Under the pieces are notes generated by a model. The model ran no database searches and was not told where the DNA came from. It saw nothing but the letters and a program-made list of their open reading frames with translations. From Siderastrea siderea (Eukaryota > Cnidaria > Anthozoa > Scleractinia > Rhizangiidae), in contig OZ034968.1 in the NCBI GenBank assembly GCA_964030785.1, positions 53,882,230 through 53,946,229 of the forward strand: a stretch of 64,000 nucleotides of DNA. The letters are read 5' to 3'. Every line of letters begins with the position of its first letter. Position 1 is the stretch's first letter. This document shows, one piece after another, positions 44,443-62,844 of the stretch. The position numbers were made by a program, and so were the translations under genes.

Positions 44443-44655
44443 AGTAGTTATAGAGTTGGGGGTTCGAGATCATTTGAAAATGATCTCAAACCAAACCCAA
44501 CTCTATATCTACTTTCCATCTGATGGCAATCATTTTATGGAGAACTATATGTATTTTATTTTATGGAAACAATTATTTTGAATTCTATATGTTTTTATTT
44601 CATGCGGAAAACCAACGCATTTTCTCATCGCGTGACGCCAGACAACAGGAAGTTT
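44443..44655 (+). repeat. Left terminal inverted repeat of element 2
   Basis: About 213 bp, matching the complement of 62,845-63,054 at roughly 90 percent. The outer 84 bases are essentially identical; the inner part has small differences. The outermost 71 bases (44,443-44,513) are themselves an interrupted palindrome. Confidence 0.93.
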
Positions 44656-44941
44656 TGAATTCTCGGAAAAATAGGAAGTCATACCGAGAAACAAGTCTTG
44701 GCATGTCTGATGGAAGTAGGAAGTAGGAAGTTTTAAAAACAACAGGGACTTTCCCGAGGAAATGACTCGTCAATTTATTGTCGTTTTCAAGATCATGACT
44801 CAGTCTTGTGATCTCTATCAACCAATTAAAAGCGTACCCATAAATTATTTTTTCTGATAAATTTATCAGAAGTTGCTGCATTTTGATAAAAATATCAGAA
44901 GTTTCTTCATTTTGATAAAGATACAAAGCCTTCAGTCTTAT

Positions 44942-45391
44942 ATGTCAAGGATGCCTCTTAGTCTGGATGAAGCAACCAAACGTTATGAGAGCTATTCTCA
45001 TAATATACAGGATTCAATTTTAACGATTGAATCATACATGGGAAGTAATACTTCCATTTCTTTTGATATGCCACAAGTGATTGCAAACTTGGACAACGTT
45101 GACACACAGAATGAAGAAAGAAATGTGTCAGCATATATAAAAGTATTGGAGGAGTATCAGCGAATGATAATAACTGAGAGGAAGAGGAGAGCCCTGAAAG
45201 AAATTATTCAAGGGAAATTTAAAGCTGCTGATTTCAAGATGAATTTGAAAAGTCAGCGACGAGCTCAACGTCTTACGCAAATGTCTCCACTTAATGCTGG
45301 ACAAATGCCTCCACCTAATGCTGAACAAATGCCTCCACCCAATGATGGACGAATGCCTCCGCGCAATGATGAACTGATGTCTGATGAATGA
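44942..45391 (+). CDS. Hypothetical 149-aa protein with MPPPN repeats
   Basis: I choose the ATG at 44,942, which is preceded by TTATATG as in other element-2 genes. The protein is helical and charged (ERNVSAYIKVLEEYQRMIIT) and ends in four repeats of about ten residues (QMSPLNAG, QMPPPNAE, QMPPPNDG, RMPPRNDE). It is the only rightward gene at the left end and converges with polymerase B. The function is unknown; its place by the terminus suggests an early or accessory gene. Confidence 0.6.
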   Translation: MSRMPLSLDEATKRYESYSHNIQDSILTIESYMGSNTSISFDMPQVIANLDNVDTQNEERNVSAYIKVLEEYQRMIITERKRRALKEIIQGKFKAADFKMNLKSQRRAQRLTQMSPLNAGQMPPPNAEQMPPPNDGRMPPRNDELMSDE

Positions 45392-45444
45392 ATGCCTTAA
45401 GTTGAACATATTTTTATACTGAACATATTTTTATACTGAACAGT

Positions 45445-48400
45445 TTAATCAATACAATAATGTCCGTAAGAGTAACTTGTTATTCCATTGTTAACTATAT
45501 ATCTTTTGTCGTCGAAACAGCTGAGTGACACTTTGTTTATTTCATAACTTCCAAGTTGATGTTTGCTGCTTCGTATTGTATTCATAGTATGATGTATTTG
45601 TTTATTTTCTAATAAAACATTTTTATAATCTTCATGTTTGATGTTGTTCTTTATTATGTTCTTCTTGATTCCTTTAGCTGTTTTTCCTACTTTCTGGTTG
45701 TCTTTTATGTAACTGTACATTTTTGATCGCAAACCGACGAATTCTGTGATTGGTATTCCAGCTCCTTCATCCTTGAATTTACCGATTACCTTCTTGTTTG
45801 TCTTATCAAAATACGGTGAGTTTTCAGGATAGTCGCTGTTGTCGAATCGATCTTTGTCATTCCAAAAGTCTCGATACACATCTTCAGCCTCAATCTCATA
45901 TGTAAGACTGTCTGTGTCAGTGAATAGTAGTTTAGCCTTATTACCATACTTTTCTTTAATGTAGTTATAATGAAAATCATACATTAGAGTTTTGCTCAGA
46001 TCGAGAATACACATACCCACATATGCCGGCCTGTTTAGGGTTAGCGTTTCCTTTATTTTATGCACTGCAACTAGATTTTCGTTGAAGATCTTACTGCTTA
46101 CATAAGTTGGTTTAGAAGCCATCTTCAATAGTTTCTTCTCATCCGTAACAAGTCTTACATCTACACGCTTTCTTATATTCTCCATCGTTTTACCGAACAC
46201 ACTGTTGTTCATAAGTTTGAAGAAGTCTTTTTCGAATGAATTTTTCGCTTGAGTACGTTTTTGTGTATTGAAGTCAATGTATTGTTTGAGCCAAGGTGAC
46301 TGATTGAATTCTAATACTCTGTACACTTTCTTTACTTTCAATCCAAGATCAATATACAACTGTAGATTTCTATAGTTTAGAACATATTTTTCTTTGTCGC
46401 ATAAAGTAGGGATCAGTTTGTGTACTAATCCTGTCGATATGTTGAACTTTTTCTGTATTTTCTTACAATATTCAGACAACATGTCACCAGTTACTTTAAC
46501 CTTTTCCGGTCCTAGAGGGTAGTCGTTATGAAGATCATGCAACTCTTTTAGGTATTCTAGATCAACTTCTAGTATCAATCCTTTATTGCTGTCTTCATTG
46601 TATTTTGCTAAGTTGATTTTATTTATTTGTTTTTCCGTCAACCATTTGAAACCACCAGTGGGAAGATATTGACTCATAGCCCAGCCGTATAAATTATTAG
46701 CATCAAGATACATAATGTACTTTGAGGGCGACTTATCATCATATTCTTTCATGTACTTGTTGTTTGCTTTACCATATCGATTGGCAATATAAGATATACC
46801 ACCACGCATGCCTTTTTCAATGAATTGAAACATGTCTATGTCTGTCATTAGTTCTAGTTGAATATCAGTCATCTTCAACATTGCATCCCATGACAAACCA
46901 GGAGATGTGAAGTAGTGACAGGGGTCAAGTTTGTAATACTGAAGACAGGTTTTACGGAAGTTTTCAAACACGTCGGCTAATAGAAGTATATCAGACTTAA
47001 GATATAGATTGTGGTATTCGCCCATCGTTTGTAATTCAAATGTATTCCACACTTTTTGAGCATGGATATAATCCTCATCTGTTATGTGCTCATTATTCAA
47101 TATGCTGTAAAATTCTTCTTTAGTTGGCAATTCTGTTTTATCGAATTTTTCAAAACTGTCCATGAAATCGTATGGATAAATACCTTTTCGCGTCATAAGA
47201 TTGAATTTTTCTTTTTTGAATTTTTTGCTTGTATATTTCAAAGCTTCTGCCGGCAAATTACTGACTAATTTATCCAAACTTGAACTCATGAATTGGAAAC
47301 TGTCGATGAATGTCAGATGGTTACCAAGCATGAATGCCATATATTTTTCCATGTTATTTGGAATAGCATTTATGTCCATTTTCATCTCTTTTCCGTTTTT
47401 GGTGTATGTATTATTCTTAACAATAGCTCCAATTTCTTGCATTATAAAATGACTGTCATAACCTCTCAAATTATGGAATATCACTGGAATTTTTATTTCT
47501 TTTGGATTTATTCTTAGTTTCAGATTGCATTCTTGATGAGCTGAGCCTCTGTATTTGCCAGTAATATGACAATGATCTCTCACTCTAATGTCTTTTTCAG
47601 TATATTTTTTATCACAGATGTGACATTCTTTAGCTTTTTCGAATTCCTCTTCATTCTCTTTTGTCATTCTCAATGGTTTATCGAAATGTTTTTTCATTAC
47701 ATTTTTACAGTATTTTACTTCTTCTAAAATATTTTCCATGAATTTATAAACAGCCTTTTCACCTCTATATAGTTGTATTGGTTTTGTATGCTTATCATCA
47801 TAACAGCAAACCACTTTATAACCATATCCACAGTCTGTATGTCTTTGGTAGGCTTCCGTGTATGATTTATTACTGTCTGGTTGGCATCCTTGTACCTTTT
47901 CAGTTATAGCCTCAAAATCAGCATAAATAACAAATGGTACAGGTTGCTGTTTATGGAAGTTGTTGAATTTCAGTATGTTATTGTCTTTATCAGGCATTTT
48001 TATTGCTTGTTCACCATTCACTTGAATGCAGTTTTCTTTATGATTGTTCAGAACCCTGTCAGAACTGAAACATTGCAGACAGCACATACAAAAGTGTTTC
48101 CTCTCTTTGTGTTTTGTTTGATTAAACATGAATCTGTTGAAATCCTTTATGAGAACATAATGCTTGTTTTCATTTTCAGTTACTAGAAGTAGTTCCATAT
48201 GATCTTCATACTTTTCTTTTGAAACATAGATGGGATATGGCTGTTTTTCTTCATATCCGAATACATTTATATTGATACTGTTTTGCTTCTCAATTTTGTT
48301 GTAATGTTTGACATTGACTGGAAATTCAACACCTGAATAATCTAACTTTTCAACGTATTGTTTGTCTGTCTTTTTTATTCTTTGAGGATCATTTTCTTGT

Positions 48401-49245
48401 GGGTTTAAGTGTCGGATATGACACCATCTGAAACAGTCATTATCCTTATTTTTCATGTTTATTAATCCCTTCTTTGAATTTTGCAGTTCGTAAGGTAGTT
48501 GGATATATGAGGATCCTTTCATGGTTTTGTATTTGACAATGTTGAGGTAATGGCTATCAACAGATTGGACCGTCCAACCAGATCCTTCTGATATCCACTG
48601 GGAGATCTGGTTTAAGATATTTTGTTTAGACATTTGTAATGCTTCATTGATTTCCATTTGGTTGATTATTGTTTGAGGTGTACTATTGAAATATGCTAAC
48701 TTTTCAACTATTTCATTACCTGAATTTTTTTCGAATGTGACTTTCAATGTTTCAACGTATTTCAAGCCTTTCATTTCATTCAACAAACTTATTACACTAT
48801 GTTCTATTGCCTTTCTCGTGTTTTGCATTTGGGTCAAGGGGTCTTTATTGTTTTTAATGCCGATTTCAAATGACTTAGTGTAGCCTTTTAAAGCTTTGTC
48901 TGTTTGTTCTATTTTGGTTCTTGGTGCTGGAACTGGCATTGGTTTTTTGGTTCTTGGTGCTGGAACTGGTTTTTTGGTTCTTGGTGTTGGAATGGGTTTA
49001 TAATTATCCCTAAATTCTTGAGGCGGTATAATGATATTATCTTCGTACTGCTTAACCATCTGTTTGACACTCTTGCGAGGTGTTGGTATTGGTCTCCTTG
49101 ATGCTGGAACTGGTTTGGTATCATCAACCACGATTATTTTAGACTTCTTTTCCTGCTTCAGAAGCAATTTGATAAGTTCCGATTTTCTGAGTTTCTTCAA
49201 ACTAGCTTTATCCATATTTATATCATTAGATTTTTCTGATTTCAT
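45445..49245 (-). CDS. POLB: Protein-primed family-B DNA polymerase
   Basis: The intact 1,266-aa replicase has an unusual N-terminus with proline repeats (RPIPTPRK, KPIPTPRTKKPVPAPRTK; residues about 50-110). The exonuclease has YADFEAI (about 442) and HNLRGYD (about 593), with a CHICDKKY...RDHCH HNH/endonuclease-VII-like zinc unit between them (about 541-562). Polymerase motifs are LDANNLYGWAM (A, about 847), LMNNSVFGK (B, about 1,013) and LLFTDTDSL (C, about 1,108). It replicates linear DNA by protein priming. Its upstream gene is transcribed in the same direction. Confidence 0.95.
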   Translation of the reverse strand: MKSEKSNDINMDKASLKKLRKSELIKLLLKQEKKSKIIVVDDTKPVPASRRPIPTPRKSVKQMVKQYEDNIIIPPQEFRDNYKPIPTPRTKKPVPAPRTKKPMPVPAPRTKIEQTDKALKGYTKSFEIGIKNNKDPLTQMQNTRKAIEHSVISLLNEMKGLKYVETLKVTFEKNSGNEIVEKLAYFNSTPQTIINQMEINEALQMSKQNILNQISQWISEGSGWTVQSVDSHYLNIVKYKTMKGSSYIQLPYELQNSKKGLINMKNKDNDCFRWCHIRHLNPQENDPQRIKKTDKQYVEKLDYSGVEFPVNVKHYNKIEKQNSININVFGYEEKQPYPIYVSKEKYEDHMELLLVTENENKHYVLIKDFNRFMFNQTKHKERKHFCMCCLQCFSSDRVLNNHKENCIQVNGEQAIKMPDKDNNILKFNNFHKQQPVPFVIYADFEAITEKVQGCQPDSNKSYTEAYQRHTDCGYGYKVVCCYDDKHTKPIQLYRGEKAVYKFMENILEEVKYCKNVMKKHFDKPLRMTKENEEEFEKAKECHICDKKYTEKDIRVRDHCHITGKYRGSAHQECNLKLRINPKEIKIPVIFHNLRGYDSHFIMQEIGAIVKNNTYTKNGKEMKMDINAIPNNMEKYMAFMLGNHLTFIDSFQFMSSSLDKLVSNLPAEALKYTSKKFKKEKFNLMTRKGIYPYDFMDSFEKFDKTELPTKEEFYSILNNEHITDEDYIHAQKVWNTFELQTMGEYHNLYLKSDILLLADVFENFRKTCLQYYKLDPCHYFTSPGLSWDAMLKMTDIQLELMTDIDMFQFIEKGMRGGISYIANRYGKANNKYMKEYDDKSPSKYIMYLDANNLYGWAMSQYLPTGGFKWLTEKQINKINLAKYNEDSNKGLILEVDLEYLKELHDLHNDYPLGPEKVKVTGDMLSEYCKKIQKKFNISTGLVHKLIPTLCDKEKYVLNYRNLQLYIDLGLKVKKVYRVLEFNQSPWLKQYIDFNTQKRTQAKNSFEKDFFKLMNNSVFGKTMENIRKRVDVRLVTDEKKLLKMASKPTYVSSKIFNENLVAVHKIKETLTLNRPAYVGMCILDLSKTLMYDFHYNYIKEKYGNKAKLLFTDTDSLTYEIEAEDVYRDFWNDKDRFDNSDYPENSPYFDKTNKKVIGKFKDEGAGIPITEFVGLRSKMYSYIKDNQKVGKTAKGIKKNIIKNNIKHEDYKNVLLENKQIHHTMNTIRSSKHQLGSYEINKVSLSCFDDKRYIVNNGITSYSYGHYCID

Positions 49246-49366
49246 ATACTACTATAGTAAGATATTATTTTAAGTAATTATTGGTGCGTTTTAAATGGTC
49301 TATAATTCAAATGATCCGCGATTGGATCCTTTGAACTGTAATTATGCATCATATCCTTGCATTATG

Positions 49367-49603
49367 TTATTGAGTTTTTTCCCTGAGATTGATTGCATTG
49401 GCGTTTTTCTTGTGCTTTTTTTTGTTTAAATGGCACCATTTACCAGCAAGAGTGTAATTAAGACCTGTATTGCAAATATCACAATACCACTCTTTATTCA
49501 ACATGTACTTCGATTTTTGTTTTTTCAAAGCCTCCTTTCTATCTTCTTCAGTTAAATACTTTTTTGGTCTTCCAGGACCTCTCTTAATTTTTGGATTATC
49601 CAT
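49367..49603 (-). CDS. Small AT-hook and zinc-finger protein
   Basis: The 78-aa protein begins KIKRGPGRPKKY, an AT-hook that binds the minor groove of AT-rich DNA, followed by WYCDICNTGLNYTLAGKWCH...KKKH, a C2H2-like zinc finger. A TATATA run lies directly before the ATG. It is probably a DNA-binding regulator or packaging accessory for this AT-rich genome. Confidence 0.65.
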   Translation of the reverse strand: MDNPKIKRGPGRPKKYLTEEDRKEALKKQKSKYMLNKEWYCDICNTGLNYTLAGKWCHLNKKKHKKNANAINLREKTQ

Positions 49604-49659
49604 ATATACATACTATATGTTTATTCTTAAATCTCTTTGGATTGTGTGTTTAAACCTCT

Positions 49660-49956
49660 TCACCACAACAGATGGTAGCTGCAGTAATTCGCGTATTCAG
49701 GATTCTTATATGTCAATTTACCATCTTTATTCTTTATCCTGGATGCTCTTTTACGATATCGTAAACGTCTTTCTGGATCTTCGTGCTGTAAAAAATCTTC
49801 ATGCCTTCTGTCACCGAAATGTATGTCTTTGCCGTTTTTGAGAGTGACTACATATTTCTTATTTTGGCGGTTTGAATATCTCAGATCCCTCGCATTGTAC
49901 AAGTTTTTCGCTCTGAATTTTAAATTATCGAAATCTTCTCCAAACAATAGATTCAT
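49660..49956 (-). CDS. DUF5754-like protein, copy 1
   Basis: The 98-aa protein has the pattern KKYVVTLKNGKDIHFGDRRHED, H-DPERRLRYRKRASRI, a linker and a YCSYHLLW end. From memory this matches the DUF5754 family of large and giant DNA viruses (FG---Y-D---H-D--R---Y--R...W---LLW). A second copy lies at 50,258-50,554. No enzymatic residues are apparent; a virion or nucleic-acid-associated role is conjecture. A TATAATATG-type motif precedes the start. Confidence 0.65.
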   Translation of the reverse strand: MNLLFGEDFDNLKFRAKNLYNARDLRYSNRQNKKYVVTLKNGKDIHFGDRRHEDFLQHEDPERRLRYRKRASRIKNKDGKLTYKNPEYANYCSYHLLW

Positions 49957-50090
49957 ATAATATGGTTATATATTCTTGGCGGCCAGAAATAATCTGGTTT
50001 TTGGCTACCAAAAGCAAAAGACAGTATATACTGTATCAATCGATATAATATATATTAGATAATTCTATTTAAACCGCTTTTATATAAATA

Positions 50091-50234
50091 GTGTTTCCGG
50101 TGTTCCATGTTAAAGGTAACGATTCGTTACCCCTGGTTTGGAGCCTCTTAAGTGAACATTTATCTTCAGAATCAACATGTTTGAAAATCGTGTTTCCGGT
50201 GTTCCATGTTAAAGGGGACGAATCGTCCCCCTTG
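50091..50234. repeat. Duplicated 45-bp unit with covarying hairpins
   Basis: Copies at about 50,091-50,135 and 50,190-50,234 share gtgtttccggtgttccatgt. Each holds a hairpin: GGTAAC-GATTC-GTTACC (50,115-50,131) and GGGGAC-GAATC-GTCCCC (50,214-50,230). The two differing stem positions change on both sides, preserving pairing. They lie just 3' of the minus-strand gene that stops at 50,258, so a transcript-end signal is likely. Confidence 0.65.
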
Positions 50235-50257
50235 GATTTGAGCTTGTTTAAACCTGT

Positions 50258-50554
50258 TCACCAGAGGAGATGATAACTCCAGAAATTTGCTGAATTCGGA
50301 TCATTGTATGTAAGGTTACCATCTTTGTCTTTTATCTTGGATGCCCTTTTTCTGAATCGTGTACGTCTTTTCCTGTTTAGATGTGTCAGATAATCCGCAT
50401 ATCGATCATCCCCAAAGTGAATTTTTTCACCATTTTTAAGAGTGACCATATATTTTTTATTCATTCTATTGGAGTATTCAAGGTCCTTGACACCGTATAA
50501 ATTGATTGCTCTATATTTTAATAAGTCGAATTTATTCCCGGTTACGGTATTCAT
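50258..50554 (-). CDS. DUF5754-like protein, copy 2
   Basis: The 98-aa paralogue of 49,660-49,956 is of the same length, with KKYMVTLKNGEKIHFGDDRY, H-NRKRRTRFRKRASKI and FWSYHLLW. Both starts are preceded by catataat-ggttatata on the top strand, so gene and promoter were duplicated together. The hairpin pair lies directly downstream. Confidence 0.65.
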   Translation of the reverse strand: MNTVTGNKFDLLKYRAINLYGVKDLEYSNRMNKKYMVTLKNGEKIHFGDDRYADYLTHLNRKRRTRFRKRASKIKDKDGNLTYNDPNSANFWSYHLLW

Positions 50555-50649
50555 ATAATAAGGTTATATATTTATAGCAAATAGCCATAAACAATGATAT
50601 TTTTGGCTACCAAAAGCAAATTAACAACATATCCTTCAAGTTCTTGAAT

Positions 50650-50922
50650 TCATTCAGTGACTTCATAATTTCGATCAATTTCTTCTTTGAGACATTTGTC
50701 GATAAGTGCACGTCTTTTCAAGAACTCTGAAAAAGTCAGATATGGCATATTTTCTATCAAACCTTTTTCTTGACATAATCTATAATTTTCATAGTCTGAA
50801 AAAAGTTCAAGATGCTCTTCATTATTTATATGAACTTCATATAGAATATGTTTATCCTTTCTTTTAAAAATATATTTCTTGTTGCAAATATCACAAAACC
50901 ATTGTTGTATTTCAGTATCCAT
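50650..50922 (-). CDS. Small zinc-finger protein, 90 aa
   Basis: The N-terminus WFCDICNKKYIFKRKDKH resembles a C2H2-type finger like that of the 49,367 gene, followed by an acidic helical body (EEHLELFSDYENYRLCQEKG, LKRRALIDKCLKEEIDR). TATATA motifs precede the ATG (catatatatgc on the top strand). It probably regulates transcription or joins a DNA complex; the family is unknown. Confidence 0.55.
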   Translation of the reverse strand: MDTEIQQWFCDICNKKYIFKRKDKHILYEVHINNEEHLELFSDYENYRLCQEKGLIENMPYLTFSEFLKRRALIDKCLKEEIDRNYEVTE

Positions 50923-50962
50923 ATATATGCATTGTATATATTATTTTATATTTAAACTGCTT

Positions 50963-51922
50963 TTATATATCTCTTAAGTCCTTGAACGGTATCCAACTGT
51001 TGAATTCATCACTATACCCCTTCCACTTCACCAAAGCTTGCTTCTTTTTATAATCCCTCCGAATGACTTTATCAATCCTGAATACCTTTTGTTCAGCTTT
51101 CAGTAATTCAGGTTCATAAAAACTCCCTTGAATGTCTTCATCTCTGAGATCCTTTAGTTTGTATGTGATTGGATTGGTGCGTTGTATTTCATCAACTTTA
51201 AAAACTTCCTCAGACCAATTTGGTGTATAGCCCTTATCAAACACATTTCGTTTATACTTACTTATTCTGACATTATCACCTATTTTGAATTTCGGTTTAG
51301 ATGATACTTGCTCCAAATTACCATATAGGTTAAAGTAAACAGTCCCTTCATTTTTCTTTTTACTGGCTTCTATGGGTGTCATTTTGATAGAGCTATGTTT
51401 AGTGTTGTTATACTGTTTTACTAATTTAGGTAGCATGTCTAAATACTGTGTATTACCTTGAACAGTAAACTGTTTCCACATTTTGGTTTTGATTGTACGG
51501 TTCCATCGTTCGCATACGCTACTTTTCTCTTCATTTTCGGTTGAGTACAAGGTTATTTTATTCTTATCAAGTAGTTCCTTAACATGTTTGTTGTAATACT
51601 CTTTGCCTTTGTCTGTCCAAAGATATTGTGGTTTTCTGCCTTCTTTAAAGATTGTTTTAAAAGCATTCATAACCGTTTCACCCTTTTTATCTTTTAATGG
51701 GACGATCCAACCGTATTTAGAGAATACATCTAAAACCATAAGAAGATATCTGTAGCCAGCGTTCCATCGACTGAACTGTTGCATCTCAATAAGATCTGAA
51801 CACCATATCTCGTCAATGCTGTTTACTAAAACACGCCGCCGAATGAAGTTTCGCTTTATCGGTTTATGAAGCTCATCAGCTAATTTTTCTTGCCAGTTTT
51901 CTTCACTCGACGGCCTTTCCCG
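50963..51922 (-). CDS. INT: Integrase with chromodomain, expressed by -1 frameshift
   Basis: The frame is open from 51,955 but its first ATG (51,778 region, MQQFSRW) falls after the first catalytic Asp (IWCSDLIEM). The core continues with LWTDKGKEYYN and SSVCERWNRTIKTK, then an SH3-like KIGDNVRIS and a chromodomain (VFRIDKVIRRDYKKKQALVKW, EFNSWIPF). Upstream residues KLADELHKPIKRNF also belong to the family N-terminus. With no usable ATG and an in-phase A AAA AAC heptamer at 51,922-51,928, the natural product is a C-terminal extension of the PLA2 protein. It makes the 6-bp target duplication seen here. Confidence 0.9.
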   Translation of the reverse strand, partial: RERPSSEENWQEKLADELHKPIKRNFIRRRVLVNSIDEIWCSDLIEMQQFSRWNAGYRYLLMVLDVFSKYGWIVPLKDKKGETVMNAFKTIFKEGRKPQYLWTDKGKEYYNKHVKELLDKNKITLYSTENEEKSSVCERWNRTIKTKMWKQFTVQGNTQYLDMLPKLVKQYNNTKHSSIKMTPIEASKKKNEGTVYFNLYGNLEQVSSKPKFKIGDNVRISKYKRNVFDKGYTPNWSEEVFKVDEIQRTNPITYKLKDLRDEDIQGSFYEPELLKAEQKVFRIDKVIRRDYKKKQALVKWKGYSDEFNSWIPFKDLRDI

Positions 51923-51928
51923 TTTTTT
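51835..51928 (-). promoter_or_regulatory. Putative -1 frameshift signal, PLA2 to integrase
   Basis: The slippery heptamer A AAA AAC (51,928-51,922) is in phase with PLA2 codons 194-196. After a 7-nt spacer, GCCGTCGAGTGAAG (51,914-51,901) can pair with CTTCATTCGGCGGC (51,848-51,835): 14 bp with two G-U pairs. The -1 frame is open from 51,955 and the PLA2 stop is at 51,880. Confidence 0.8.
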
Positions 51929-52572
51929 GTCCCAAGACCTAGTTTCTGCTTTGTGTTAATCATATTTCTAGCCAGCCAATGCCCCCATTGTCTTTCATTG
52001 TAAGGCACACTGTCTAGAGCCTTAACCATTTTTCTATCAGCTTTATTCTTGCATTTTTTGTCATCCTTGCAAACCGAATAATCGACGTCGTGTTGCATTG
52101 CTATTGCATCCGTTTTACCGGTCGGTTTATCATAGATTTCCAATATCTCACCAGTAACTGGATTATATTTTACTTGGTTTTCAAGATCGTTGTAAGGCCC
52201 AGTGTATTTATGACCAGGTAAAGTCCATCCTCCCTTTGGTTTAGGTAGCCTTCCGATGGCTTTATGGATATCTAAACTACCACCATCCAAATCCTTCCTG
52301 TCAGTTCTATACTTTCTATTCGGTCTTATTTTGGTTGATAATTGATCAAGAGCTTGACTTCCGACATTTTGAATCATTGGATTCAACTTATCCAGAGCAT
52401 AATCGATAGCCTTTTTCTGCAGTTTTGGGTTTCTCAAGGCTTCTGATCCATAATATCTTCCCATTTCAACAGCCTTTTTTCCCAGCCAAGGAATACCGTG
52501 GTGAATCAATAAATCAGTACCAGTTGATGCTACTGTATCTAGTACGCCCGCCCCTTTCGACGGGCCAGCCCG
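51880..52572 (-). CDS. Phospholipase A2 capsid-type protein (reached by -1 frameshift)
   Basis: Numbered from 52,509, an amphipathic helical region (about 1-65) is followed by a DLDGGSLD site resembling a protease cleavage site, then PLA2: calcium loop GHKYTGPYN (99-107) and catalytic H140-D141 (AMQHDVDYSVC). A family-typical ending (INTKQKLGLGTKNGKGRRVK) follows. The frame has no ATG near its conserved start (the first is MGRYY, after the conserved LLIHHGIPWLG). A G GGA AAC heptamer links it to the zinc-module ORF upstream. It acts in membrane breach during entry, by analogy with parvovirus VP1. Confidence 0.85.
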   Translation of the reverse strand, partial: RAGPSKGAGVLDTVASTGTDLLIHHGIPWLGKKAVEMGRYYGSEALRNPKLQKKAIDYALDKLNPMIQNVGSQALDQLSTKIRPNRKYRTDRKDLDGGSLDIHKAIGRLPKPKGGWTLPGHKYTGPYNDLENQVKYNPVTGEILEIYDKPTGKTDAIAMQHDVDYSVCKDDKKCKNKADRKMVKALDSVPYNERQWGHWLARNMINTKQKLGLGTKNGKGRRVKKTGKKN

Positions 52573-52724
52573 TTTCCCGCCTGTTTAACGAATTTAGTCT
52601 TAGTTATTCCACATTCAGAGCATTTGCATTTAAGCATAAGCCTCCCATTTTTAGCCTTTTCATATCGTTCACTCCCGGGTACACATTCTGTGACCCTTTT
52701 TTGTTTCACGCAATATGATTTCAT
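52539..52724 (-). CDS. Zinc-ribbon module, N-terminal part of PLA2 polyprotein
   Basis: The start has the element's TATATA motif beside the ATG. The protein reads MKSYCVKQKRVTEC, then LMLKCKCSECGITKTKFVK: a CxC-x-xC zinc-ribbon-like unit. Read without slippage it ends after 61 aa. In related elements, as I remember them, this module is fused in frame to the PLA2 region, which supports joining here through the heptamer at 52,572. It is nearly identical over its first about 50 residues to the start of the neighbouring 52,746-53,147 gene. Confidence 0.65.
   Translation of the reverse strand: MKSYCVKQKRVTECVPGSERYEKAKNGRLMLKCKCSECGITKTKFVKQAGNGLARRKGRAY
52546..52578 (-). promoter_or_regulatory. 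Putative -1 frameshift signal, zinc module to PLA2
   Basis: The heptamer G GGA AAC (52,578-52,572) is in phase with the zinc-module frame. It is followed after 6 nt (GGGCTG) by GCCCG (52,565-52,561), which can pair with CGGGC (52,550-52,546) across a 10-nt loop. The patch is strikingly GC-rich for this AT-rich element. The overlap of the two frames is only 46 bases (52,539-52,584). Confidence 0.7.
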
Positions 52725-52745
52725 ATATAATATGATTAGATTAGA

Positions 52746-53147
52746 TTAAGGTTCAATATATACGTTTTCATATTTACCAGTTTTTGGATTTTTCACCAAA
52801 CGCATGACAGTACCCTTCTTTGGTTTAGTCCAGAATTTCTTGCTTGTTATACCTGTTGGTCCTGTGAAAGCACCTTTTAAGATATCACCAGACCAATATC
52901 GGTCAAATACATGGTTGGTTGATGGAATTACTTTGCGAGTTATTTGTTCGGCTATTTTGGCTGCCTCAAAAGCTTTACCTAATGGATTTTCACCTCCTTT
53001 TTGACTTTTGACGAATTTAGTCTTAGTAATACCACATTCACCACAAATACATTTAAGCATAAGCCTCCCATTTTTGGCTCTCACATATCGTTCACTCCCT
53101 GGAACACATTCTGTGACCCTTTTCTGTTTCACGCAATAAGATTTCAT
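52746..53147 (-). CDS. Zinc-ribbon protein, second copy of module
   Basis: The 133-aa protein shares the MKSYCVKQKRVTECVPGSER opening and CICGECGITKTKFVK zinc unit with the gene downstream, then diverges to a different basic body (KGGENPLGKAF with a GG site, and KKGTVMRLVKNPKTGKYENV). The shared 5' 180 bases, including the TATATA promoter, point to a tandem duplication of promoter plus module. It is likely a virion component, given the shared N-terminal tag and position beside protease and core genes. Confidence 0.6.
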   Translation of the reverse strand: MKSYCVKQKRVTECVPGSERYVRAKNGRLMLKCICGECGITKTKFVKSQKGGENPLGKAFEAAKIAEQITRKVIPSTNHVFDRYWSGDILKGAFTGPTGITSKKFWTKPKKGTVMRLVKNPKTGKYENVYIEP

Positions 53148-53162
53148 ATATATATAACTTGA

Positions 53163-53633
53163 TTACATATTTTTGAAATACTGTTCTAAGAATTTCTCAT
53201 TATTCGTCGTATCATATATGTCGAAAACTTCCAACAGATTAAAATATGATTTACCCTTATTCATCTCATTCAAAAAATATAAACAGAAGTAACCGCATGT
53301 TGTCGTCAGTAAATTTTGTATTTGATTGTTCTGATGAAGCAATGTTAAATTCTTTTTTCTCGCGTGATTGACCATTTCTTGGAAGGGAGGCAAACCAAAA
53401 CTATCAAAGTAATTGATGACTTTGTCCTTAACATAAGTAGCTACCCAATGACTCCCTGACATATAACTCGGTTCAAGATTGTAAATGAATAGAGCCTGTC
53501 TATGATTGTGAGGAACATTTTCATCTCGAGACAGAACATCTTTGATTGGGATATTCAGATATTTACACCATTTTATTAAATCATAATTGCTTAATGGGAC
53601 ATTCTTATGGAATTTCGGTTTTACAACAGAATG
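53163..53633 (-). CDS. PRO: Adenain-like cysteine protease, 5' end in -1 frame
   Basis: The catalytic His (GSHWVATY), Asp (NYFDSFGLPP), Gln and Cys (NQIQNLLTTTCGYFCLYFL) are all present with the adenain Gln-to-Cys spacing of 7. The only ATG (53,462) starts just 4 residues before the His and would drop a conserved N-terminal region (VPLSNYDLIKWCKYL, RQALFIYNLEPSY), which is open in the same frame back into the upstream core-protein gene. Translation through a -1 shift at G TTA AAC (53,633-53,639) would supply it. It processes capsid precursors at GG sites. Confidence 0.85.
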   Translation of the reverse strand, partial: HSVVKPKFHKNVPLSNYDLIKWCKYLNIPIKDVLSRDENVPHNHRQALFIYNLEPSYMSGSHWVATYVKDKVINYFDSFGLPPFQEMVNHARKKNLTLLHQNNQIQNLLTTTCGYFCLYFLNEMNKGKSYFNLLEVFDIYDTTNNEKFLEQYFKNM

Positions 53634-54478
53634 TTTAACAGTGGGACGTTTTTGAAGGGTGAGTTCTTGCCCAATAGTAGACCTTTGCCCTTTTTCTGAG
53701 CTTTTTTTTTGGGAGCTTTTTTTTTAGTCCCCATACCGATTGTACCGTTCGGCCAATTTCCATAAAAAGGTGGAGTTCTATACATTGGCATTAACAAACC
53801 ACCATCCTGATTATCATTGGTTAGTTTTGATATAGATCTGGGTGGTCTTTGTTTCGGTTGTCCCATCTGAGGGGCACCTTTACCAGTCATCTTCTTTATT
53901 GCCTCAATAGCTAAAGGGACTCCAATTGATGCAAGAAGAGTACCTAAGAAACCACCTGTTTGTACTTTTGTTGGTTTTATATGAACACCAGAGCCTGTTT
54001 GTAGAGCATTTAATATATCCTTCTTTTGTTTGGTTGTCAAAAGATGTTTATATGTTATCAACTGATCGATTTTATTTTGTGGTATGAGGAACCCACCGGT
54101 TTGAACACCTTTTCCGGATATCTTCTTAACAATCTGAGATGCTCCTTCACTAGCTGCTCCAGCTAAAGCCGACAATCCAAGAGTCTTAGCAATCGTTGGA
54201 CCAAAAGTTCTTCCAAGTGTTAGAACTGTAGACAGAAGAGATCCACCAACTTGCTTTCGAATGTTTGTTTTAGAAAGTTTAATGTCCATTCCTTTCTTAA
54301 GTTTCTGATTTTTTTCCAATCGCTTAACTATATTCTGAGGTACATACAGAGTGTCATTCCCAGATAGAGAGTCCTTCGTGAGCCTTAGAACTATTGTTTC
54401 TCTTTTATGATACGCGTTACTAAGATTCTTTTTCTGGTTTGGTGATAAACTAACTTTAATTTCGTATAGTTGTGTCAT
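53621..54478 (-). CDS. Membrane-active core/minor capsid protein with GG sites
   Basis: The 285-aa protein has an N-terminal domain (LSPNQKKNLSNAYHKRETIV), then QVGG (76-79) followed by a hydrophobic/amphipathic helix (LLSTVLTLGRTFGPTIAKTL), QTGGFL (126-131), a second helical unit, QTGGFL again (173-178) and a Lys-rich tail. Three regularly spaced QxGG sites suggest stepwise cleavage by the adjacent protease, much like adenovirus pVI/pX precursors. The stop lies 9 bases after a G TTA AAC heptamer leading into the protease frame. Confidence 0.7.
   Translation of the reverse strand: MTQLYEIKVSLSPNQKKNLSNAYHKRETIVLRLTKDSLSGNDTLYVPQNIVKRLEKNQKLKKGMDIKLSKTNIRKQVGGSLLSTVLTLGRTFGPTIAKTLGLSALAGAASEGASQIVKKISGKGVQTGGFLIPQNKIDQLITYKHLLTTKQKKDILNALQTGSGVHIKPTKVQTGGFLGTLLASIGVPLAIEAIKKMTGKGAPQMGQPKQRPPRSISKLTNDNQDGGLLMPMYRTPPFYGNWPNGTIGMGTKKKAPKKKAQKKGKGLLLGKNSPFKNVPLLNILL
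53633..53639 (-). promoter_or_regulatory. Candidate -1 slippery heptamer, core to protease
   Basis: G TTA AAC is in phase with core-protein codons 281-282, 9 bases before its stop. The same heptamer is used by an arterivirus. Two A AAA AAA runs upstream in the overlap (about 53,703-53,727) are alternatives. No strong downstream stem is evident. Confidence 0.5.
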
Positions 54479-54552
54479 ATAATATATGTTAGATAAATTC
54501 TCTTTTAAAAAACATATTCATTTAAATTTTCATCGATGTAAAACTTATTTAT

Positions 54553-55842
54553 TTAAACTATCATCAATTCGTTTCCAACTGTCTTTACTACAACCTCACT
54601 CTCGTAAAATACGATGCTATGAGCTCGGACGTTTGCTGTCGGGGCTACATTGAGACGATAATGGAGAATCAACTGTTTAGGATCTCTCGTCACTACCTCT
54701 TTCTGATATGACAAATCGAAATACAATAATCCATACAAACTAGTGAAATTGGATACATTAAGCTGTGTTCCTGAATTGTAATCGTTCTTACGAAATGCAT
54801 ATGACATGAGATCATTAAATATCCGTATTTTAGAGTCACTATCATATTCCAGTTCTGGGTAAAAAACATTATTCCCGTATTCAAGCCTGCAGTTTGATAG
54901 AGAGCTATTAGCATCAGCTGCATTCAACTTGAAAGTGTCAAATAAATACGGACTCCTCTCTGCTTCATCATCATTTGGTCCGTCTGTCCTCTGGAGATAT
55001 ATAAAAACATGTTTAACGTCATCGATAGCTGGACTGATTTGAAACATATTCTGAATAGCTCTGGTATTTGCTGACTGATTGTAGAGATCTCGCATATATG
55101 TCCAGGTTGTTGGCTTGAGAAACTCTGAAACGAAATTACTATACATGCTGTCTTTTGGGATTAATCTTGGGAGCCAAAGATACAATCTCTTTACTACAAC
55201 ACGACCAGGGTCTGTGCCATTTGCCATGTGAATCAGTTCACTGTCTTCGTTAAATGTAAGTTCAATTGTGAGCTGCATCGGAGGCAACATTTTTCTTTCT
55301 AATTCTTGAAAAAAGCTGTATCTGTTTAAGGGAAGCATCTCATTAATACTTTTAGCTCCCCCACCACCGTTGTTTTGTGCTGCTTGGGTTAAAATACGAC
55401 GGGCCTCAAAACCTGTGTTTGTATTTGCTGTAGTTCCATCAGTATCAAGATACCAGAACGAATTCTTTCCAACGGATCTACTAAAATCATTACTGTATTC
55501 GAGTAAATTTTTCACATTCGTAATTCTATGTAAATTATCACTCTCGTATACTATTTTACCAGACGATTTAATAACCATATGTCTGATTAGACTGTGAGAT
55601 CCGTTTATCATGGTGATGCGATCTGCTTGAGCATATCCTGTACCATCTGCCTTTTTTTGAAGCTCTTTAGTTACTTCGAAATACCCATTAAAAAAATCGA
55701 ACATAGTCGACCTATCGTTGATTGTGAATCTGTAACCTGTCTTTTTCTGGCTTTGATTGTTAGCAGGTTGCTCAATGACATTATCCAAATTGAAACGAAC
55801 GTATTCATATCGTTGCAGATTTTCATTTGTTCTGAAACTCAT
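54553..55842 (-). CDS. MCP: Major capsid protein (double jelly-roll)
   Basis: The intact 429-aa protein has the MCP pattern: RYEYVRFNLDNVIEQP, GYRFTINDRSTMFDFFNGYF, then SLIRHMVIKSSGKIVY, NRYSFFQELERKMLPPMQL, a second beta-rich half and a C-terminal VRAHSIVFYESEVVVKTVG. It is a distant counterpart of the element-1 MCP with little direct similarity, supporting separate lineages. It is flanked by the core protein and a small amphipathic protein and has a TATATGAG promoter motif at its start. Confidence 0.88.
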   Translation of the reverse strand: MSFRTNENLQRYEYVRFNLDNVIEQPANNQSQKKTGYRFTINDRSTMFDFFNGYFEVTKELQKKADGTGYAQADRITMINGSHSLIRHMVIKSSGKIVYESDNLHRITNVKNLLEYSNDFSRSVGKNSFWYLDTDGTTANTNTGFEARRILTQAAQNNGGGGAKSINEMLPLNRYSFFQELERKMLPPMQLTIELTFNEDSELIHMANGTDPGRVVVKRLYLWLPRLIPKDSMYSNFVSEFLKPTTWTYMRDLYNQSANTRAIQNMFQISPAIDDVKHVFIYLQRTDGPNDDEAERSPYLFDTFKLNAADANSSLSNCRLEYGNNVFYPELEYDSDSKIRIFNDLMSYAFRKNDYNSGTQLNVSNFTSLYGLLYFDLSYQKEVVTRDPKQLILHYRLNVAPTANVRAHSIVFYESEVVVKTVGNELMIV

Positions 55843-55940
55843 TTATATGAGTAGTTTAGATAAAATTCACTTTTTAGATAAACCATTTCCCACTTATTAG
55901 TCTATTTATGATTGGATAAAATTCACTTTTTAATAACATT

Positions 55941-56306
55941 TTATCGTCTTAATCCAGTACCAGATATAAGTCTATTCAGAATTGTGTTGTAATCTTCTTG
56001 TTTTGGTTTAGTAGGTTTGGTTGGTTTCATGGTTTTATTCATTGATTGTTTAGTTGAACCGTGTAATTTTCTCATACTAAGCTCTCCGCTTTTTTCAGCT
56101 GCTTTTTTTCCCAGTTTGTCTCCAGCATGTGAAATACCAGATTCAAGCGCTTTTTTGGCAAAAGGTTTTAAAACCATTTCTGGAACTTTACTTAACACCC
56201 TTCCAACCGGTTTGAATATGTTATCAACAATCCCAGATCCTTTATGCTTATACACAAAACGACCTAGTTTCGGGTGATAAATTCGCTTGTATTCATACGA
56301 CGACAT
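55941..56306 (-). CDS. Small amphipathic virion-type protein
   Basis: The 121-aa protein opens MSSYEYKRIYHPKLGRFVYK and KGSGIVDNIFKPVGRVL, whose GSG-hydrophobic stretch resembles a protease site plus amphipathic membrane-active helix, followed by a basic Lys/Thr-rich tail. TATATA precedes the ATG. By position between MCP and penton-like genes it is probably an internal capsid protein. The family is not recognised. Confidence 0.55.
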   Translation of the reverse strand: MSSYEYKRIYHPKLGRFVYKHKGSGIVDNIFKPVGRVLSKVPEMVLKPFAKKALESGISHAGDKLGKKAAEKSGELSMRKLHGSTKQSMNKTMKPTKPTKPKQEDYNTILNRLISGTGLRR

Positions 56307-56324
56307 ATATAACTATTAGTTAGA

Positions 56325-57086
56325 TTAATCTCTCTTCTCTCTTAAAATCAAACTGAATGAAGTGTCACTATGATTAAGATCGATGATTCTCCTCTTACCA
56401 TCTGTGATATAAATTCTTATTTTATTGATCGTATTTTTATTACACGGGTTGTACTGAACTCGTCTTGGCTCTTGTGTGAAACTATAACTCGGTGTCAAAG
56501 TACTAGTACTGAAACTATATATAATATCTGACTCTTCACCATCGACAAGACTATCACTTATCAAATCACAATGAACATTCAATATTTCTCTGTCTTGTGA
56601 GAGATTAGGAATGTAATCTCCAACATTTACACTACTTGTTAGAATCTTTTTATTGAAACCAATAAGATCATTAAAATTACTTTGAGTAAGATCTAATCTG
56701 TAATTTGAGGCTAGTGTTATTATTGTCCTGAATACAGTATCGTTAAACTCCAGAGTGATTGGATATTGAGGGTTTGATGAGGTCCCTGTTTTTGTTTTTT
56801 CTTTGATTAAATTGTCAAAATCAATGTAATTCCATACTCCAGGGTTGAATATAATTTCCGTCCAATTAGTACCACTATCTGTCGAATATCTTATTTTCTG
56901 ATTATTGAGTTCTTTAGTCACATTGAACCAAGTGAATGACATCGAAATGATTCGATCTAGGCCGATTTCATATTGTCTGTTTGAATCCAGTATTATCGGA
57001 TTACTGTATTTGATTGTGAAATCTGATGGTTTATTACCACTTATACCTTTGACGATATGACTGGATAATACAAGTTGTCTATTCAT
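56325..57086 (-). CDS. Penton/minor capsid protein-like
   Basis: The 253-aa beta-rich protein has an N-terminal pattern (LSSHIVKGISGNKPSDFTI, NRQYEIGLDRIISMSFTW) parallel to that of the two element-1 penton-like proteins. It carries repeated polar beta strands and ends RRIIDLNHSDTSFSLILREK. Size and gene order suit the single-jelly-roll vertex protein. The stop is 18 bases before the start of the 55,941-56,306 gene. Confidence 0.65.
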   Translation of the reverse strand: MNRQLVLSSHIVKGISGNKPSDFTIKYSNPIILDSNRQYEIGLDRIISMSFTWFNVTKELNNQKIRYSTDSGTNWTEIIFNPGVWNYIDFDNLIKEKTKTGTSSNPQYPITLEFNDTVFRTIITLASNYRLDLTQSNFNDLIGFNKKILTSSVNVGDYIPNLSQDREILNVHCDLISDSLVDGEESDIIYSFSTSTLTPSYSFTQEPRRVQYNPCNKNTINKIRIYITDGKRRIIDLNHSDTSFSLILREKRD

Positions 57087-57094
57087 TTATATGA

Positions 57095-57283
57095 TTAGTT
57101 TAGACTAAAATAGTTTTTGTATATTTTGTTGTATTGTGACTTATTGAGTATTGAATTTCTCAACAAGATTTCGAGAAGAGCGACACCTGTGTTTCTTAGC
57201 TCTATGCTATTATTACCAGCAACCTTTGATCCGATAATCAGTTCCAGTTTTTTCATCATTTCTGTCGGATTATTGAAAAACAT
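57095..57283 (-). CDS. Small helical protein, 62 aa
   Basis: The ATG overlaps the previous gene's stop as TAATG, suggesting reinitiation or leaky translation. The protein is MFFNNPTEMMKKLELIIGSK then NTGVALLEILLRNSILNKSQ: two short helices. I recall similar tiny proteins (L-IGS--AGN-S---RN) beside the same neighbour in other animal Polintons, so it is likely conserved though unnamed. Confidence 0.6.
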   Translation of the reverse strand: MFFNNPTEMMKKLELIIGSKVAGNNSIELRNTGVALLEILLRNSILNKSQYNKIYKNYFSLN

Positions 57284-58092
57284 TACCTGTCCACCTCTTT
57301 TTGTTTTTTCTTCAAACCAGACCCTTTAATATTTTTTAATCTTTGATTGTTGTAATCGATATAATCAGTAAGAACCTTTCTTGTATCTTGAATAATTTTT
57401 CTTCGATATTGAGCCTCAGCTTCAGTCATTAAACCACTTTTTAATTTTTTACTGATATCACTCAAATAACCATTTAGTTTCAAACGTTGATCTTTAGCAT
57501 TTTTCAAGATTTTGTTCAGATAAGCTTTACTCTTTTTATTATCCATATCTTCTTGTTGAAGTCGTAATTCAATATCATCATAGTTAGGAATTTGAAGTTC
57601 ATCTAAAGCTTGATTTATTCTATCCTCTTCAAGAATTTCGTAATCTGGTACTTCTTCTTCGTATCCAGGTGGAAGATCTTCAGGTTTATACATAAATTCT
57701 GGATCTATATACATTTGTTTTTCACCTGATGCTAAATCCTTGAGGACATCTTCATAACTTGGAGGTTTTGGAACCAATTGTTTGTCATTTTGTGGTAGAA
57801 CTTGATCACTGAATAGATCTTCTAGACCATAATCAGGGACATCCTCATCGTCTCCTATTTCAAGACTATAATCAGGAACAGGTCCCTTTTTCTTTGATAA
57901 TCTTCTCAATGGCATTTTAGGTAATGTGAGTTCCTTTAACTCAGATGTTATAGGTTTGAAAAGTTTCTCTGCCTCGACTTCACCCATTTGATCAGATATC
58001 GTTTTTTGTTTTATTGTCTCTCTTACTGTGTTAATCTTTTTACCAAGCTCGGATCGTTTCTCAGCCATTTCTTTCCATTTGAGTAAACTCAT
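57283..58092 (-). CDS. PPxY late-domain protein
   Basis: The 269-aa protein has two PPxY motifs: PPSYEDVL (110-117) and PPGYEEEVPDYE (141-152). PPxY recruits NEDD4-family ubiquitin ligases and the ESCRT pathway in retroviruses, and guides entry trafficking for adenovirus pVI. Repeated VPDY-type acidic motifs lie at 72-90 and 148-151. The C-terminal third is a helical domain (YLNKILKNAKDQRLKLNGYL) ending in KGSGLKKKQK, again a GSG-type site. It is probably an internal virion or matrix-like protein. Confidence 0.7.
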   Translation of the reverse strand: MSLLKWKEMAEKRSELGKKINTVRETIKQKTISDQMGEVEAEKLFKPITSELKELTLPKMPLRRLSKKKGPVPDYSLEIGDDEDVPDYGLEDLFSDQVLPQNDKQLVPKPPSYEDVLKDLASGEKQMYIDPEFMYKPEDLPPGYEEEVPDYEILEEDRINQALDELQIPNYDDIELRLQQEDMDNKKSKAYLNKILKNAKDQRLKLNGYLSDISKKLKSGLMTEAEAQYRRKIIQDTRKVLTDYIDYNNQRLKNIKGSGLKKKQKEVDR

Positions 58093-58220
58093 TATATCAT
58101 TTGTTTACATAAAATTTCGTATTTTGTTTGGAAAAATTAGGGTTATCATATATAAAAACGCTCGCATAGCGTGTCGCATAGCGTGTCGCTATGCGATAAA
58201 ATTGTATAACATAGTATCAT
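58093..58220. promoter_or_regulatory. Divergent promoter with stem-loop
   Basis: TATATAAAAAC (58,150-58,160) and TATCATATG before the ATPase lie opposite to the cattatat motif of the leftward gene. Between them tcgcatagcg and cgctatgcga (58,174-58,196) form a palindrome, preceded by a direct copy of cgcatagcgtgt. It could be a replication or regulatory hairpin. Confidence 0.5.
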
Positions 58221-58862
58221 ATGAAGATTCAAAATTACGACATTCAAGATGATGAAAACAACGATTTTGTTCAATTAAAGAGTTTCATGCCAAACCGATG
58301 TTTCAGGATGCTTATTTGTGCTCCCTCTGGTGGTGGTAAAACAAACCTTCTGCTTGATATGATATACAGGCTCTTATACTTTGATAAAATATATCTTTAC
58401 GCTCGCAATCTCCAACAAAGCAAATATAAGCATCTGTTGAAATCTCTTGAACCAATATCAAAAGAGGTCGGCTATGATATAATCGAAGCAAGTAATGATG
58501 AGATCATCCCTTTAACAGATTTGTCTGATGAAAACCAAAAATTAGTCATCTTTGATGATTATTTGAATACAGGTAAGAAAAATGACGAACGGATACGAGA
58601 CTACTTCACCAATTCGAGAAATAAAAATTGTTGCTGTATATATTTGAGTCAAAGCTATTACGGAACCGATAAAACAATAAGACTGAATAGTTCACATTTT
58701 TGTGTTTTTGATTTTCCTTCTATAAACGAGCAATCGATGATTTGCCGAGAACTGAACATAAATAAATCAGATTATCAGAAAGCTACTAAGGATCCATATA
58801 GTTTTTTGTATGTTGATAAGGTCAAAAAAAAGGTAGCCCGAAATTTCGACGAAAAAATCTAA
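58221..58862 (+). CDS. ATP: A32/FtsK-HerA type packaging ATPase
   Basis: The 213-aa ATPase has Walker A APSGGGKT (34-41) and Walker B KLVIFDDYLN (107-116), with a CIYLSQSYYGT strand resembling the family sensor region. Size equals the element-1 ATPase. It starts the rightward late block of this element (ATPase, fibre, two membrane proteins), the same local order as in element 1. It packages genomic DNA. Confidence 0.92.
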   Translation: MKIQNYDIQDDENNDFVQLKSFMPNRCFRMLICAPSGGGKTNLLLDMIYRLLYFDKIYLYARNLQQSKYKHLLKSLEPISKEVGYDIIEASNDEIIPLTDLSDENQKLVIFDDYLNTGKKNDERIRDYFTNSRNKNCCCIYLSQSYYGTDKTIRLNSSHFCVFDFPSINEQSMICRELNINKSDYQKATKDPYSFLYVDKVKKKVARNFDEKI

Positions 58863-58878
58863 ACTAATATTATATTAT

Positions 58879-60579: not shown

Positions 60580-60619
60580 TTACTTTCCACAAAAAAATTT
60601 ACATTTATTATATAACACA

Positions 60620-61195
60620 ATGCGAGACATTTTCGAATTCAACCATATCGACAAAACACTTTCTGAAGAGAAGGTTAAATTTCTGAAAGATTTATATACT
60701 CATTACCACAAGAAACATTATTGTTATGAAAAGTTGCACCTCGGTTTTCGAAGAAAAAATTTTGTTTGTAATCTTTCAGCTGGCAAGTTAATTATTAGTG
60801 CCGCAGTTGCTGGAGGGATGACACTGAACCCTGCTGTCATGGCAACTTTAACTGGTGTTGGTCTTATTTTGAAAGCAGTGGCAAGCCTTAAAAAATTCAA
60901 TAAAAAAATGGAACGAGCAAATTCGTGGACGAATCGGTTGAAATTGTTTGACAATACCGACGTTGGCGATGGTGTTGCCGATTTAAAAAATGTGATTGTG
61001 CTTAATGTATGGATAAAGAGATGGGATCGATATTATCACTCTAAAAGTGCCCTATTGGAGAAGGATTTCAACAATAGCATCGAATTTTTTTACAACAGCG
61101 ATATGACCGGTTATTACACATATTTCAGCACAGTTCCAAGTGATTGGGATATGAGTTGCATCATTGAATGGTTACGTATCCCTCAACCAATCTAA
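60620..61195 (+). CDS. Two-helix membrane protein (SLATT-like layout), copy 1
   Basis: The ATG at 60,620 follows TATATAACACA. The 191-aa protein has EEKVKFLKDLYTHYHKKHYC, two hydrophobic helices (about 55-68 and 71-88), a Lys-rich segment and a helical C-terminal domain with YYHSKSALLEKDFNNSIEFF. It is related in layout to the next gene and to the 9231 gene of element 1. A pore, fusion or egress role is inferred from topology and from its place after the fibre gene. Confidence 0.65.
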   Translation: MRDIFEFNHIDKTLSEEKVKFLKDLYTHYHKKHYCYEKLHLGFRRKNFVCNLSAGKLIISAAVAGGMTLNPAVMATLTGVGLILKAVASLKKFNKKMERANSWTNRLKLFDNTDVGDGVADLKNVIVLNVWIKRWDRYYHSKSALLEKDFNNSIEFFYNSDMTGYYTYFSTVPSDWDMSCIIEWLRIPQPI

Positions 61196-61254
61196 GTTGA
61201 TAGTGAAAATATTCCATCGAAGCCTGAGAGTAATGAATAATCTAACATATATAT

Positions 61255-61377: not shown

Positions 61378-61380
61378 TAT

Positions 61381-62781: not shown

Positions 62782-62844
62782 GTCATTTATTTTTAAGATA
62801 TAACCATGCTTTTATACTCCAAGGGAGAACCGTATGATAAAAAC

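Follow-up and report, generated by a model that had tools for sequence, protein, structure and literature searches.

Two successive -1 frameshifts as the probable route to the integrase of a Polinton in Siderastrea siderea

The gag-pro-pol genes of betaretroviruses and deltaretroviruses, such as those of MMTV, SRV-1 and HTLV-1, are translated with two successive -1 shifts, and the integrase comes last. In bacteria, the DDE recombinases known as IS3-type OrfAB transposases arise through a -1 shift at A-rich heptamers. For vertebrate Polintons/Mavericks, the integrase is described as a separate ORF and frameshifts are regarded as decay, at least in the parts of that study at hand (PMC8097293). 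Similarly, in the available portions of two other reports, fragmented genes are interpreted as degeneration (PMC12721341) and frameshifts are handled as assembly error (PMC10120064). The nearest earlier proposal appears to be a predicted slippery site in Penton of adintoviruses, obtained with KnotInFrame according to the accessible sections of the source (PMC11071296). No earlier description of PLA2-integrase frameshifting in Polintons was found in the literature, as judged by titles and the openings of abstracts. While -1 frameshifting is a known kind of mechanism, we take its twofold use in a Polinton to be new.

The window, that is the whole 64,000-nucleotide stretch of Siderastrea siderea DNA that was analysed, holds two Polinton-like elements. 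The second (element 2) has the following main features, and the integrase of element 1 is given for contrast.

44443..63054, no strand assigned: element 2, a Polinton with inverted repeats and a flanking direct repeat
45445..49245, minus strand: ORF of 1266 aa, probably the PolB polymerase, with an FTDTDS motif and an endonuclease-VII-like stretch
50963..51955, minus strand: integrase open frame, rve core and C-terminal chromodomain, first ATG at 51784
51880..52584, minus strand: open frame of PLA2, with its first ATG at 52464, serving as zero frame for the second putative slip
52539..52724, minus strand: zinc-ribbon ORF of 61 aa with an ATG, zero frame of the first putative slip
58221..58862, plus strand: packaging ATPase, Pox_A32-like, with a terminase match too
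1048..2265, plus strand: integrase of element 1, with its own ATG

The terminal inverted repeats of element 2 lie at 44443-44583 and 62914-63054, AGTAGT opening and ACTACT closing the element as read by eye from the printed sequence, and the 6-bp direct repeat CATCCA borders it at 44437-44442 and 63055-63060. Terminal inverted repeats with AGT-repeat ends, a 6-bp target duplication, an rve integrase with a chromodomain and a packaging ATPase are features of Polintons/Mavericks; the PolB and the adenain-type protease of such elements are represented here by a DTDS motif and a sub-threshold Peptidase_C5 match only. Family searches of the 1266-aa ORF gave the endonuclease-VII stretch and no polymerase family, and the one feature that points to PolB is the FTDTDS motif. 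The PLA2 frame contains a PF08398 domain at about 52230-51949, and the zinc-ribbon ORF matches Pfam DUF5679 at E 0.00038, below the curated cut-off. When 28 ORFs of the window were scanned against Pfam, no reverse transcriptase family appeared. Each element includes a small ORF (9231-9911 and 61381-61863, both on the plus strand) that matches SLATT_1 weakly and below threshold, and a host-like EPTP-domain ORF is enclosed by a large inverted repeat (24819-26389 / 37142-38659, 85-93%).

We propose, with a probability of about 0.9, that a single mRNA encodes the zinc ribbon, PLA2 and integrase, and that ribosomes reach the latter two via two successive programmed -1 frameshifts. Most ribosomes would end after the 61-aa zinc-ribbon protein. 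Some would slip on G GGA AAC, aided by a hairpin 6 nt downstream, to make a zinc-ribbon-PLA2 protein (281 aa by codon count), and a fraction of those would slip again on A AAA AAC, aided by a 14-bp stem 7 nt downstream, to make zinc-ribbon-PLA2-integrase (587 aa), the three products appearing in falling amounts. The sequence-only reading had proposed a minor PLA2-integrase fusion made by a single shift; the sequence supports a minor fusion, which we amend to zinc-ribbon-PLA2-integrase reached through two -1 shifts. The site leading into PLA2, equally conserved, had been missed. The layout of the two junctions, their phases and spacing, the predicted structures and their conservation can all be read from the DNA, as given below.

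At the PLA2-integrase junction (J1), the integrase frame opens after a TAA at 51958-51956 and ends at 50963 on the minus strand. No ATG lies ahead of its first catalytic Asp (WCSD), as the first one (51784) comes after it. The PLA2 ORF terminates with TAG at 51880, leaving an overlap of 76 nt, in which and behind which the putative signal is found.

51922..51928, minus strand: second slippery heptamer, A AAA AAC, in PLA2 phase
51915..51921, minus strand: spacer of 7 nt
51901..51914, minus strand: 5' arm of the 14-bp stem
51835..51848, minus strand: 3' arm of the 14-bp stem, inside the integrase codons (N)FIRRR

The heptamer (51928-51922) occupies PLA2 codons 194-196 counting from TTG 52509, and from the sequence phases a -1 slip on it enters the integrase frame. 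It is followed by the spacer (51921-51915) and a stem (51914-51901 / 51848-51835) that includes two G-U pairs. On all these points our reexamination agrees with the sequence-only reading. An in-phase X XXA AAC occurs three times in the 4,560 codons of the listed element-2 ORFs, and two of the three fall in the two -1 overlaps. Because in-phase canonical heptamers of any type are much commoner in the A-rich element 2 (36 in 4,560 codons), a single heptamer is weak evidence alone. At both J1 and the zinc ribbon-PLA2 junction (J2), an X XXY YYZ heptamer in zero-frame phase is joined by a spacer within about 5-9 nt (7 nt at J1, 6 nt at J2) and then a predicted RNA structure, and the arrangement is conserved in relatives, whose DNA comes solely from the window's own genome. 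At the integrase of element 1 such a layout is absent: it has its own ATG, and no slippery heptamer was found within its 64-nt overlap with the ORF upstream.

The 92 nt after A AAA AAC are predicted to fold at -28.0 kcal/mol, with a z-score of -3.86 and none of 200 shuffles as good (z -3.42 and 1/200 in a second run). For a longer stretch of 181 nt, z was -1.92 and six of 200 shuffles were as good. Along the block, 6 of 1,396 windows of 92 nt fold at least as stably as J1 by free energy, all of them at J1 or J2; the z-score is not unique to J1, since two of 210 sampled windows elsewhere reached -3.4 or below. In relatives, J1 folds gave z -2.45 (7/200) for L050, -4.28 for L017 and -3.71 for L087. 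The 14 pairs of the stem are 97.5% paired in 31 distinct sequences, compared with 28-55% at offsets of 1-3 columns, and 97.7% paired in a chosen, wider set of 28. A stem after A AAA AAC is well supported by the folding predictions. Covariation had been suggested as a check on it: the stem is conserved, but two-sided changes relative to the commonest type were seen in 0 of its 14 pairs. Several compatible one-sided changes are present; G-U, G-C and A-U all occur at one position, and 11 of the 31 sequences have an A-C mismatch in one pair. The second Arg codon of the integrase in the 3' arm is CGG in 40/40 copies, and CGG makes up 11 of 199 Arg codons of the element; these rare codons would help to build the 3' arm.

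The 831-Mb genome was searched for further copies of J1, and 88 copies from this one genome were examined (the window and 87 others), in which members of one family are close relatives and counts are not independent events. The first set comprises 40 scored matches among 806 candidates, the window itself included. For the second set, 150 of 3,030 candidates found with the P0168 query were scored and the best 30 taken as loci, and the third consists of 18 short stretches picked for diversity. No closer family of the P0209 type was seen, the window heading the 150 scored genome hits at 79% identity. Conservation of the junction in relatives had been named by the sequence-only reading as a check, and within this genome the heptamer, spacing and stem are mostly kept in the 87 other copies. 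The two frames stand in -1 relation in 84 of the 88 (39/40, 30/30 and 15/18 in the three sets), with A AAA AAC in 51, U UUA AAC in 27 and other, weaker sites in six (four A AAA AAA, one U UUA AAA, one G AAA AAC). All 39 first-set copies at -1, of 40 aligned, have the in-phase A AAA AAC; L047, with a 2-nt deletion, reads in frame and has a broken heptamer, and is also the exception to the 7-nt spacer, found in 30 of 31 distinct sequences. In the second set, 27 copies read GGT TTA AAC TGA, and the others have A AAA AAA (L069, L076) or U UUA AAA (L073). A AAA AAC is present in 12 of the 15 third-set copies at -1, with UAA at once after it in L087, L088 and L090, and is replaced by G AAA AAC in L083 and A AAA AAA in L086 and L089. 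Of the 69 loci of the first two sets, 67 show the stem pattern (exceptions L069, L076), as do 15 of the 18 third-set loci (exceptions L081, L086, L089). Four of the 88 are in-frame PLA2-integrase fusions (L047 and the third-set L081, L082 and L091), the frames being united by short indels close to the slip site.

These counts bear on whether a single long ORF was broken at a homopolymer by pseudogene decay or assembly error. The four in-frame copies would fit such a history, as would the three of 150 scored PLA2 hits that lie in open frames of >500 aa and the proneness of A-runs to length change. Against it, 84/88 copies have one and the same -1 relation. This relation is found in two families with different heptamers, of which U UUA AAC is not a homopolymer, and J2 has G GGA AAC. 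In addition, the same C-termini are retained in protein clusters drawn from public assemblies, and both the inverted repeats and the flanking repeat of element 2 are present. Most of the copies examined contradict decay or error, which we regard as practically out of the question.

The case that we consider decisive is the sister family, in which U UUA AAC stands for A AAA AAC at the same place. In its 27 copies the PLA2 stop UGA follows directly, the spacer, UGAAAAG, has the same length of 7 nt, and no change is seen in the 5' arm. Copies of the other heptamer type with the PLA2 stop directly after the heptamer likewise keep both this spacer length and the 5' arm. Because PLA2 ends right behind the heptamer in such copies, coding in the overlap no longer explains the conservation of spacer and 5' arm. 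The strongest evidence for slippage comes from the comparison of the families: the heptamer type at J1, the end of the reading frame, the spacer sequence and the loop differ, while the features needed by a slipping ribosome have been kept. From these features we infer that slippage occurs, and at a rate suited to a minor product. Its purpose would presumably be to provide little integrase, perhaps carried into particles attached to PLA2.

Relatives in protein databases numbered 7,463 for the integrase, 2,410 for PLA2 and 260 for the zinc ribbon, possibly including other assemblies of the window's own species, and the best 120 of each were read. The one named relative among the protein clusters is Oculina patagonica, which we take to be a coral. 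Among the best 120 of the 2,410 PLA2 proteins, 80 have xKN at the C-terminus, 35 have LN and five have neither. The residue before KN is P in 42, T in 23, S in 11, A in two, L in one and K in one; all of these have an NNA codon, the condition set by A AAA AAC. Similarly, 113 of the best 120 of the 260 zinc-ribbon proteins have xGN at the C-terminus, preceded by A (53), T (26), S (13), Q (11), M (5), V (4) or I (1), and a codon ending in G is possible for every one of these residues except the isoleucine. No relatives were found in the viral contig and genome contig databases, Rfam gave no match at E up to 1, and PDB searches gave no useful match.

Some database entries carry PLA2 and integrase in a single chain, and these may be gene models with predicted introns; they are what speaks for a small intron, transcript slippage or editing as the means of joining the frames. 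The chained proteins (P0002-P0038 and others) are near-identical and yet differ in their joining points, which argues against a genuine intron and suggests predictors bridging the frameshift with false introns, although some of the entries may be true in-frame copies. Moreover, the sister-family PLA2 ends right behind U UUA AAC, and splicing needs no downstream stem at a fixed spacing. Joining of the frames at the RNA level is in our view extremely unlikely.

Many of the database integrases start at odd places, for example with MSEEENWQ, as would be expected from a gene caller left without an ATG. An integrase with its own start could begin at an overlapping AUG in the -1 frame, reached either through leaky scanning or through stop-start reinitiation; alternatively, its start could be a non-AUG codon. 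An integrase-frame AUG was found in 17 of the 84 copies at -1. In 13 of the 39 first-set copies at -1 (13/40 of the set), it lies at GAAGAAATGAGC, as an ATGA overlapping the PLA2 stop; the same ATG is found downstream of the PLA2 stop in L087, L088 and L090; and L077 has one farther upstream, at caATGGgg, where some database proteins (MGSLVG..) seem to begin, to judge from the protein alone. The ATGA subfamily (L017, L018, L019, L021, L023, L024, L028, L032, L034-L036, L039, L046), together with L087, L088 and L090, has the heptamer and the stem. Against an own start, 67/84 copies at -1 lack an AUG in frame before the domain, and TAG and TAA block the caATGG start in the window. The only near-cognate codon before the conserved LADELHKP is AGG, which occurs twice, and even the copies with an ATGA start still retain the heptamer. 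An own start is very unlikely to account for the integrase generally, but in the AUG-bearing minority it may be a second route, and the frameshift route of the sequence-only reading stands for most copies with this qualification. Decay, splicing, an own AUG and a non-AUG start were all rejected as general explanations, leaving two successive -1 slips as the preferred one.

The first of these slips would take place at J2, where the zinc-ribbon ORF and the PLA2 frame overlap by 46 nt in -1 relation.

52572..52578, minus strand: first slippery heptamer, G GGA AAC, in zinc-ribbon phase
52546..52565, minus strand: hairpin 1, 7 bp, GCCCGUC (52565-52559) / GGCGGGC (52552-52546), starting 6 nt after the heptamer

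In the window, z for the J2 fold was -2.84 over 60 nt and a more modest -1.92 over 40 nt and -1.54 over 92 nt; among relatives, L051 gave -2.33 at 60 nt (6/200) and -3.26 at 40 nt, and L046 gave -3.65. Of the 40 aligned first-set copies, 39 have G GGA AAC, the exception being L029 with A GGA AAC. The -1 relation holds in 36/36 scorable first-set copies, 35 of them with G GGA AAC, four of the 40 having been missed by the anchor. It also holds in 29/29 scorable sister-family copies, all with G GGA AAC and a stop codon immediately after. In the sister family, the 6-nt spacer differs in sequence and the loop is different, and the stem is the same. A pattern of NGGAAAC, 6 nt and hairpin, searched with tolerance for some stem changes, was matched in 68 of 69 loci, among them L029 with its A GGA AAC; the exception, L044, escaped because its stem is altered. 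Generally, spacer sequence and loop are variable at J2, and the heptamer, spacer length and stem are mostly constant. Another heptamer, A AAG GGG (52557-52551), was considered as the slip site and dropped in favor of G GGA AAC, which lies upstream, in phase, and is better conserved. A PLA2-frame AUG upstream of the slip site was seen in 4/36 first-set and 8/29 sister copies, and in the sister family further AUGs lie past the slip site and before the PLA2 domain; in the window, a shortened PLA2 could start from the AUG at 52464. The zinc-ribbon coding stretch is duplicated (52584-52729 and 53007-53152, minus strand, 88%); one duplicate runs in frame to a different C-terminus (52746-53147), and the other leads into PLA2 by -1.

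A third overlap of this kind, of 103 nt, lies farther upstream.

53621..54478, minus strand: ORF which we take to be the capsid-region protein, overlapping the protease frame; possible third slip
53163..53723, minus strand: adenain-like cysteine protease frame, Pfam Peptidase_C5 E 0.032, below cut-off

The former ORF had no family match, and the protease motifs are presumably adenain-like. The first ATG of the protease frame is the codon immediately before SGSHWVAT. In the overlap (53621-53723), A AAA AAA occurs in phase at 53723-53717 and 53708-53702. Of 38 scorable first-set copies, 31 are at -1 without an ATG before the anchor, five are in frame and two at +1; in the second set all 30 are at -1, an ATG of some kind occurs in the frame in 23, and the poly(A) tract is the in-phase site common to all 30. 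No downstream structure was detected here in the window (z -0.4 to +1.5). G UUA AAC was dropped as the slip site, other copies having UCUAAAC or CUUAAAC there. With weaker evidence than at J1 and J2, the third junction may represent a third slip or transcript slippage. We suggest tentatively, at somewhat less than even odds, that these Polintons combine a DNA genome with a retrovirus-like expression plan of independent origin, in which three -1 frameshifts would give protease, PLA2 and integrase as rare fusions carried into particles. The protease would then be a minor extension of the capsid-region protein by slippage on the poly(A) tract, PLA2 a minor extension of the zinc ribbon, and the integrase a minor extension of that.

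Compared with the known systems, the IS3-type OrfAB transposases differ in being bacterial, with a single shift and unrelated partners. Element 2 shares with vertebrate Polintons/Mavericks the AGT/ACT-repeat ends, the retrovirus-like integrase and the packaging ATPase, whereas its frame break is common to most copies and has slip sites, unlike what the available part of the vertebrate study describes (PMC8097293). In the adintovirus Penton case, -1 frameshifting was likewise proposed computationally for a relative of Polintons; however, it concerns an alternative C-terminus of Penton rather than PLA2 and integrase, and the portion of that source at hand gives no conservation of the junction (PMC11071296). 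The present analysis suggests that a break in the frame of Polinton-type elements, often taken as decay, can be a programmed one, and that false introns may be introduced where gene predictors span it. It also offers a concrete hypothesis for the dosing, and possibly the packaging, of a Polinton integrase, and suggests that one group of animal DNA elements solved the low-integrase problem as retroviruses did. Unlike retroviral gag-pro-pol, element 2 is a DNA element with no reverse transcriptase among the scanned ORFs, its upstream partners are a zinc ribbon and PLA2, and its protease lies in another ORF pair. In the heptamer types (G GGA AAC, A AAA AAC and U UUA AAC), the similar spacing and the predicted downstream RNA structure, however, the layout of element 2 and its relatives is akin to the twofold frameshift of gag-pro-pol in beta- and deltaretroviruses.
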